Positions 53,689 through 55,629 of a stretch of 64,000 nt of DNA are shown piece by piece. Both the position numbers and the translations under genes were made by a program. The notes under the pieces were generated by a model. It did not search any database and was not told the DNA's origin. It saw only the letters and a list, made by a program, of their open reading frames with translations. Position 1 is the first letter of the stretch; the number at the start of each line of letters is the position of its first letter. Origin of the DNA: Sulfurimonas marina (GTDB taxonomy: Bacteria; Campylobacterota; Campylobacteria; Campylobacterales; Sulfurimonadaceae); NCBI RefSeq assembly GCF_014905095.1, contig NZ_CP041165.1:1-64000 (forward strand), in the 5' to 3' direction.

Positions 53689-55185
53689 TTATTGCTGTCT
53701 TTTATTAAATCCCGATGTACCGAGTTTTGAGTCAATCGTAAAACCTTCACTATATGGTTTGAGGTAGTTTGGAACTGCTCTTCCTTTGAGTTTCATCATA
53801 TCACTTAACATACTTTTTGCAACAACTTCAGGAGTAAGTTTTTTGACATCCGTCAGATATGTAAACAGTAGTTCCCCCTGTCTTTGAAGCGAGATTTTAT
53901 AAGTTGAATCGGTTTGTTCATATACCCATAAACTAAATGCATAAAAGTTTGTAAAAACACTTTCATCTTTCCATAACAGTTCAACAGAGTTTTTAAAGTT
54001 TCCACTGTTGTGTAAAATATCCCAAAAACGTGCAAAGCGTTTCATTTTTTGGATCTCTTTAAATGAGAGCTGGTTATTTTTGAGAATATCATATGGCGGG
54101 ATATCGCTATAAACCATTCCAAAAGTTTCATCATGTCTGTCGATATAGGTCCCTGAGAGCTTCTTGAGTATTCCTATTTGAATTTCACATGAGCTCATAG
54201 CTTTGAGTTGATCAAGGTTTTTTCCGAAACTCTTCAAAGATTCACCCGGTAAGCCGACAATTAAATCAAGATGGATATGTGCAGAGGTCTCATTTTCCAA
54301 AAAGGCGATGTTCTCTTTGATCTTATCAATTTTAAGCTGTCTTGATATATTGTTGGCTATCTCCGTATTGAGTGTTTGAATACCAATTTCGAGCTGCAGT
54401 GCACCGTGGGGGAACGATTTTATCTTCTCTCTAAGTGAAGCTGGAAAATGATCGGGAATCACTTCAAAGTGTGCAAAGTAAGGCGGCTCTTTTTCTAAAA
54501 AGAAATCAAGCACCATATTTGCCGCTTTCATATTGAGGTTGAATGTACGATCGACAAATTTAAAGTTTCTCGCACCTCTTTTCCAAAGAGTCTCAAACTC
54601 CTCCAACACTTTTTCAAGATTAAAAGCACGTACTTTTTCATCCATTGAAGAGAGACAAAATTCACACTCAAAAGGGCATCCGCGTGAGATCTCTACATAG
54701 ATATAACGGTTTTGGATATCTTCGTCGGTGTAGTATTTGTAGGGAAGTTCCAACTCTTTTAGTTTCGGAGCCGAGAGGGGTGTAATTCTCTCGTGAGCAT
54801 TATTTTCAACAATATTTTTACAAAGCTCGTAAAATGCAACATCGCCTTCCCCTTTGATGATAAAATCGGCATCACTAAAGTCTACACGAAAAGGCTCGTA
54901 ACTCACCTCTGGACCGCCGAGGACTATTTTTGTCTCAGGGGAGACTCTTTTGATGATGTGAATAAGTTCGTGAATCTGTGAGGCATTCCAGATGTAGACA
55001 CCAAGTCCCAAGATATTGGGTTTTTCATCCAGAATTTTCTCAGCTACGCTTTGCATAGCATCGTTTATAGAAAACTCCATAATCGTTGTATCGTTTTGAA
55101 GCTCTTGCATATTTGCATAAAGATAGCGAAGTGCCAAAGATGTATGTGTATATCTGGAGTTAAGGGTTGAGAGTACTATTTTCAT
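53689..55185 (-). CDS. B12-binding-type radical SAM protein (DUF4080-like)
   Basis: A 498-residue cytoplasmic protein. The N-terminal part (about residues 1-140) resembles a cobalamin-binding (Rossmann) domain with NILGLGVYIWNASQ and ILGGPEVSYEPF. The radical SAM core has the Fe-S motif CPFECEFC (CxxxCxxC) near residue 170. A DUF4080-like C-terminal region follows. Such enzymes usually do methyl transfer or other radical chemistry; the substrate is unknown. Its RBS (TAGGAAC) lies inside the long structured repeat just upstream, 55188-55456, which may control translation. Confidence 0.85.
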   Translation of the reverse strand: MKIVLSTLNSRYTHTSLALRYLYANMQELQNDTTIMEFSINDAMQSVAEKILDEKPNILGLGVYIWNASQIHELIHIIKRVSPETKIVLGGPEVSYEPFRVDFSDADFIIKGEGDVAFYELCKNIVENNAHERITPLSAPKLKELELPYKYYTDEDIQNRYIYVEISRGCPFECEFCLSSMDEKVRAFNLEKVLEEFETLWKRGARNFKFVDRTFNLNMKAANMVLDFFLEKEPPYFAHFEVIPDHFPASLREKIKSFPHGALQLEIGIQTLNTEIANNISRQLKIDKIKENIAFLENETSAHIHLDLIVGLPGESLKSFGKNLDQLKAMSSCEIQIGILKKLSGTYIDRHDETFGMVYSDIPPYDILKNNQLSFKEIQKMKRFARFWDILHNSGNFKNSVELLWKDESVFTNFYAFSLWVYEQTDSTYKISLQRQGELLFTYLTDVKKLTPEVVAKSMLSDMMKLKGRAVPNYLKPYSEGFTIDSKLGTSGFNKRQQ

Positions 55186-55187
55186 AA

Positions 55188-55456
55188 AAGTTCCTATCCC
55201 AAAGATAACCCAACTTTCAGCGACAAGAGAAGTGTTCTAGTTCAAGGCAAATTTTTGCAGGACTAGTTTTGTCTAATGCAAAAAAATTTAACGATGAAAT
55301 AGGATACTTCTCTTATCGCCCGAAGGGAGTTGTAGAACTATACCTACTAGTGCGTTAAAAACCCTTGAAGCTACTAGTAGCTCCTACGGATTTTTGCCTA
55401 ATATTAAGCATAGTTTTACAACTCTGAAAATTTGGTTATCTTTGGGATAGGAACTT
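55188..55456. other. Large symmetric nested-hairpin element, possible structured 5' leader
   Basis: Outer arms 55188-55220 and 55424-55456 are inverted copies, 31 of 33 matches, including 23 in a row. Inside, 55221-55233 pairs with 55306-55318 (12 of 13) and 55327-55341 pairs with 55410-55424 (14 of 15), giving two hairpin domains of 98 nt each. CCCGAAGGG at 55319-55327 can form a third small hairpin between them. On the minus strand the terminal arm contains TAGGAAC, the RBS of the radical SAM gene (ATG at 55185). A -10-like TATTAT lies at 55465-55470. No coding sequence is seen. Confidence 0.65.
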
Positions 55457-55464
55457 GAAAGTCT

Positions 55465-55470
55465 ATAATA
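55465..55470 (-). promoter_or_regulatory. Possible -10 box (TATTAT) of the radical SAM gene
   Basis: On the minus strand the TATTAT hexamer differs from TATAAT at one base. A start 6-8 bases downstream would be at about 55457-55459, directly at the first base of the outer stem of the structured element. No -35 is evident, as is usual in this phylum. Confidence 0.45.
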
Positions 55471-55479
55471 AAAAGGGAA

Positions 55480-55520
55480 AAATCAGCCAAGAGGTAAAAA
55501 GGGAAAAACTCGGCTGATTT
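55480..55520 (-). terminator. Hairpin downstream of the chemoreceptor gene, probable terminator
   Basis: AAATCAGCC (55480-55488) pairs with GGCTGATTT (55512-55520) across a 23-base loop. On the minus strand, T-rich DNA (TTTCCCTTTTTATT) follows the stem. It lies 110 bases past the stop of the chemoreceptor gene (55630). The loop is long, so this is a moderate call. The remaining gap 55521-55629 shows AT-rich DNA and nothing else that I can assign. Confidence 0.5.
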
Positions 55521-55629
55521 AAATATTTTATAGGAGTATATATTTTCTCTCGCATATGAAAGGGGGAAACATATTTGAGATGAAAAATTATATTAATTAT
55601 AAGTAAATGCTAAGTAAATAGGGATAGTC

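Follow-up and report, generated by a model that had tools for sequence, protein, structure and literature searches.

Sequence comparisons place a nested hairpin of Sulfurimonas marina in a Campylobacterota family of non-coding mini-transposons

Several described families of small repeats share features with the element analyzed here. The repeat unit of pneumococcus (RUP) is a small intergenic palindrome that targets TA and has terminal inverted repeats (TIRs) in common with an IS630 element, by which it is presumably moved (PMC2229807). The Correia or NEMIS elements of Neisseria are TA-flanked MITEs; their folded transcripts are cleaved by RNase III, which alters the expression of neighboring genes (PMC2229807, PMC10969869). 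ERIC (RU-1) sequences of enterobacteria are imperfect intergenic palindromes that are conserved in several genera and fold as RNA. CIR, known from Caulobacter and Brucella, has a two-armed RNA fold with a linker that is conserved across genera (PMC2229807). REPs and REPINs consist of two inverted structured units with a spacer and are dispersed outside genes.

Each of these families differs from the nested hairpin that we analyzed in the window, the first 64,000 nucleotides of S. marina contig NZ_CP041165.1. RUP is 107 bp long, has one TIR type, and is confined to one species, and paired inverted inner units are not described for it in PMC2229807. The Neisseria elements differ in sequence and size and have no two-unit cloverleaf; cutting by RNase III is a property of theirs. 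ERIC measures 127 bp and has one main stem, and exchange of ends is not reported in the ERIC literature examined. CIR lacks an outer end-to-end stem and carries a GANTC motif in place of the AAGGC/AACG loop found here. REPs are tied to Y1 (RAYT) transposases, whereas the ends of the present element match a DDE (IS630) transposon with a TA target. Sequence comparison identifies this element as a non-coding mini-transposon, and a search of open-licence papers gave no published description of the Campylobacterota family to which it belongs. We judge that the conserved two-unit fold combined with variable ends is what is new, the IS630-type MITE kind being already known.

Anatomy of the element

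The complete palindromic element is 269 nt long and ends exactly where it was first drawn (Table 1). Its minus strand folds at -123.9 kcal/mol, against -58.2 +/- 4.4 in shuffles (z = -15); the plus strand gives z = -12. The original prediction, made from the DNA letters, had proposed 33-base outer arms enclosing two hairpins of exactly 98 nt each and a CCC-GAA-GGG junction, and each of these parts was recovered. The arms, 33 nt each, are complementary at 31 of 33 positions (94%), and the inner hairpins measure 100 nt (B, counting its outermost pair) and 98 nt (C). The far arm indeed stops 2 bases short of the ATG at 55185 and contains TAGGAAC. The prediction had recognized no described RNA class in the element, in agreement with Rfam, where no family reached the gathering score; a known Rfam RNA was rejected as an explanation on this ground. 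It had missed two points, namely, that B and C are diverged inverted copies of each other and that the arrangement recurs in many genomes. The general layout is TIR - unit - CCCnnnGGG - inverted unit - TIR, and the list of open reading frames (ORFs) holds none of 60 aa or more inside the 269 bp.

Table 1. Coordinates of the element and of the neighboring features in the window
Feature	Position	Strand	Remark
Whole nested-hairpin MITE	55188..55456	.	Full copies elsewhere share the same start and end positions
Outer arm / terminal inverted repeat, class T1 (AAGTTCCTATCCCAAAGATAACC)	55188..55220	.	T1 matches IS630-type TIRs
Structured unit B (P1, internal loop, P2, P3)	55220..55319	+	76.6 bits, model R1
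Central CCC-GAA-GGG mini hairpin	55319..55327	.	Between units B and C; recurs across the family
Structured unit C, inverted copy of B	55327..55424	-	93.2 bits, model R1
Second outer arm / terminal inverted repeat	55424..55456	.	
Degenerate TA target-site copy, AA here	55187..55188	.	Most copies elsewhere have TA
Degenerate TA target-site copy, TG here	55456..55457	.	
SD-like TAGGAAC in element end	55190..55196	-	A few bases before the ATG; occluded by outer-arm pairing
-10-like TATTAT, ancestral promoter element	55465..55470	-	Conserved in relatives without the insertion
B12-binding radical SAM protein (DUF4080), 498 aa, downstream gene	53689..55185	-	Under purifying selection

Distribution, ends, and mobility of the family

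A genus-wide search returned matches to the element in 74 of 135 genomes, many of them with multiple copies, and many alignments span exactly 55188 to 55456. The window element is the sole close copy in its own genome. A structural model recovered a second unit there (1484640-1484741, E 1e-7) together with two weaker candidates, one at 936904 and one at 325281, the latter adjoining a partner unit of 48.7 bits. Across the phylum, a covariance model detected the unit in 31 of 298 genomes, representing 13 of the 58 genera sampled, and most such loci have another unit in inverted orientation about 105 nt further on. When 84,980 species genomes were scanned by pattern, all loci among the matches listed carried Campylobacterota names. 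Blastn against phage and plasmid collections gave no match to the window element, and IMG/VR held no exact match to the unit pattern; a phage or plasmid origin was accordingly rejected.

Most ends of the copies elsewhere are flanked by TA. None of the 59 elements with clear surroundings is inside an ORF, and the gene-orientation classes around them are close to those of ordinary gaps; the copies flank unrelated genes in all orientations. In the genome of a relative (G018), a 1126-bp insertion sequence (IS) is present in three copies and encodes HTH and DDE_3 (IS630-type) domains in two reading frames. Over 31 bp, its terminal repeat and that of a G018 element match at 97%, and the window copy, though diverged, has ends of the same class. 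Because this end class matches the TIRs of an autonomous 1.1-kb IS630-type IS in a relative, we classify the element as a MITE. For the family we found TIRs (the arms occur in more than 50 relatives), an autonomous partner, TA at the ends, no transposase gene, dispersed copies, and an empty site, so that membership in the IS630/Tc1-mariner MITEs appears well supported; for the window copy, the same assignment appears well supported by its end class, its unit content, and the empty site. Mobility at this site is past, since the TA duplication has been lost and the genome of S. marina gave no hit to a matching transposase.

The same units are accompanied by at least eight unrelated classes of outer arms, examples of which are TAAGTACCT, TAAGTCCTTAG, TAAGTGCCTGACC, TAATACCAATCCC, TAAGTAATAGGGC, TAAGGGCACCTC, TAGACTTCTTGCA, and ATCACCGCACCAA. 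IS630-type partners were found for two end classes, and their transposases are about 41% identical. The TIR of class T3 resembles those of IS630-type elements in another genome, G127. For T6 ends (AGGGCACCTCTAAAAACCCT), a genus-wide pattern search for an autonomous IS returned element-sized spacings and no clear 1-kb pair, and no transposase is present at L316, the one unpaired T6 locus inspected.

Some loci depart from the usual layout. At G018:C1:1635131-1635161 and G002:C1:1061658-1061702, terminal repeats stand alone or back to back without an interior; they may be what remained after elements were deleted. T3-class ends also occur on two elements, at G018:C1:1385421-1385707 and 1381449-1381734, that are longer than usual, at about 286 bp. 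At the G018 loci L073 and L076, a second palindromic repeat with GAACCGGTACTT(C/T)AGTGCCGGC arms adjoins two nested-hairpin elements.

Covariation and strand bias in the conserved unit

The unit of about 98 nt comprises a stem P1 of about 22 bp, an internal loop AAGGC / AACG(A/C)AG, a stem P2 of 8-9 bp, another internal loop, and P3. Within the first loop, AGGC and AAC show no variation across 32 units drawn from many elements, and these residues lie outside the main helices save for one G-C pair. An integron-attC-like reading, suggested by the AAC-containing boxes, was set aside, as the invariant bases appear unpaired rather than paired with one another.

Both sides have changed at 33 of the 38 pairs of the fold. 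Covariation cells number 259 against 73 in shuffles, none of 500 shuffles reaches any of the measures, and the covariation score is 0.648, whereas slid controls do not exceed 0.173. On the AAGGC...AACG strand, with the pairing register picked from Watson-Crick pairs alone, G.T outnumbers A.C by 123:51 in P1 and by 47:1 in P2; the sequences behind both the covariation and the wobble counts are related, and the counts therefore exceed the number of changes that arose independently. P2 and P3 repeatedly contain G.T pairs, and columns 43-60 form one in 24 of 32 units. The unit fold thus appears to be under selection, kept across many genera while sequence and ends change. Since the opposite strand would be expected to show the reverse bias, selection appears to act on the AAGGC...AACG strand as a single strand, either RNA or single-stranded DNA (ssDNA), both of which fit the G.T bias. 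G.T pairs are near neutral in RNA and are mismatches in DNA; their persistence leads us to lean toward RNA, as which the unit probably acts.

The original prediction had named a mobile palindrome as its alternative, and this is supported by the dispersal of copies between genes, by TA at their ends, by terminal repeats that match those of IS630-type elements, and by the empty site in both nearest relatives. It had also expected such a palindrome to show scattered copies with no covariation beyond direct sequence identity. The scatter is as anticipated, but the covariation is strong.

The insertion site and competing explanations

The downstream radical SAM gene is present in 56 of 60 genomes of the genus. 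In most orthologues, a TATG(C/A)TA-like -10 box is conserved about 19 nt before the ATG, so that the native leader is very short; the TATTAT that had been proposed as a -10 in S. marina is its counterpart. In the two nearest relatives, G015 (93% protein identity) and G121 (89%), the matching upstream flank runs straight into the ATG and the element is absent. Excising the element in silico with one 2-bp target copy yields the same 13-nt GACTT-to-ATG stretch as in G121. The element is absent from all of the approximately 25 orthologous upstream regions inspected, those of the two closest species included, and among these orthologues only the window species carries it. Comparison of these regions indicates that the element landed between the conserved -10 box and the ATG. 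The gene shows no decay: its dN/dS against G015 is 0.06, and dN to G121 is about equal with the element (0.081) and without it (0.078). From its position, the element presumably now forms the leader of the gene, transcribed as its 5' UTR, with the last arm hiding the SD-like site.

Similar placements recur in the family. With the start codon taken as the first ATG of the open frame, which leaves some distances uncertain, at least 12 elements belonging to the first two end classes have a start codon 0-8 nt beyond an SD-like end such as GGAGAGGTACTTATG or TAAGGACTTAATATG. About a dozen other elements sit on a TAA stop, where the TA target and the first base of the element re-create the stop codon. 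The window copy is one instance of a common insertion outcome.

On the other side of the insertion, a block of about 110 nt (55476-55591, minus strand) is conserved in 13 aligned species between a chemoreceptor gene and the radical SAM gene. It contains a promoter-like TATAATTAATATAAT, a hairpin with a TTTCCCCCTTT loop, and then a terminator-like hairpin with another C-rich loop. We regard it as a candidate small RNA with two C/U-rich loops and a weak LhrC match.

The main proposal of the original prediction was a leader dedicated to the radical SAM gene, such as a riboswitch or RNA thermosensor. Its anatomy stands, in that the ancestral -10 box and the ATG are separated by a very stable fold whose closing stem contains an SD-like site. 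The dedicated regulatory role is unsupported and was rejected because orthologous upstream regions, those of the closest species among them, lack the element and the other copies lie beside unrelated genes in all orientations. The symmetric palindrome with TA ends and transposon TIRs and the lack of an Rfam match also speak against such a role, which we consider highly improbable. A milder version, in which a mobile copy has been co-opted and now controls translation of this gene by hiding its SD, would draw on the 5' UTR position, on arms still complementary at 31 of 33 positions though the TA copies are lost, and on normal purifying selection on the gene. Yet only this species has the element among the orthologues inspected, which makes selection for regulation indistinguishable from tolerance, and the same geometry in many copies at unrelated genes suggests a general outcome of insertion; co-option therefore strikes us as unlikely.

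Other alternatives concern what the units do. They might act as ssDNA hairpins that join the two TIRs during transposition or replication, a reading consistent with selection on one strand, with a palindromic design that would juxtapose the ends, and with conservation of the units alongside different TIRs. The autonomous IS with the same TIRs has no units, however, which leaves a role for them in transposition unsupported and also argues that they are more than transposase binding sites, and the recurrent G.T pairs of P2 and P3 would be mismatches in DNA; we give the ssDNA reading some weight, as a minority view. It is also conceivable that the covariation is a by-product of palindrome homogenization acting on an unselected fold. 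Long near-perfect palindromes are prone to template switching and hairpin repair, template-switch repair can mimic covariation, and P1 stems are often perfect. Such repair would nevertheless remove the identical unpaired loop residues that are invariant across elements, and it is not expected to keep a wobble bias as strand-asymmetric as that of P2, making homogenization very unlikely. More tentatively, the units could be the lasting part of the family, a cassette of RNA or ssDNA conserved across an order and able to swap its ends among TA-targeting transposases; a host factor would recognize the fold and render gene-side insertions harmless or useful.

The account that we favor, and hold to be very probable as a whole, is that of an IS630-moved MITE with a folded unit, inserted between promoter and ATG and presumably now a 269-nt 5' UTR. 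An IS630-family transposase would act in trans, recognizing TIRs of about 30 bp, targeting TA, and moving the non-autonomous element, which would here have entered the very short leader of a conserved B12/radical SAM gene and left an SD-like site in the closing stem of the transcript. Each strand carries one sense unit, and the unit on the transcribed strand, whichever that is, would function as folded RNA, most likely serving as a processing or insulating hairpin for read-through transcripts. Cutting of MITE transcripts by RNase III is known for Correia elements (PMC10969869). Processing or insulation of this kind would make insertions beside genes tolerable and thereby favor persistence of the element, possibly at the price of lowered or conditional translation of the downstream gene.

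Element ends that are SD-like and lie before start codons would offer a simple route by which large hairpins come to look like riboswitch-type 5' leaders in genome scans. Most MITEs have conserved ends and a middle that is filler. Here the reverse appears to hold: the middle is kept by compensatory changes over many genera, and the ends are wholly different between subfamilies. The family may thus provide a testable case of a non-coding mobile element that carries a selected structure of its own.
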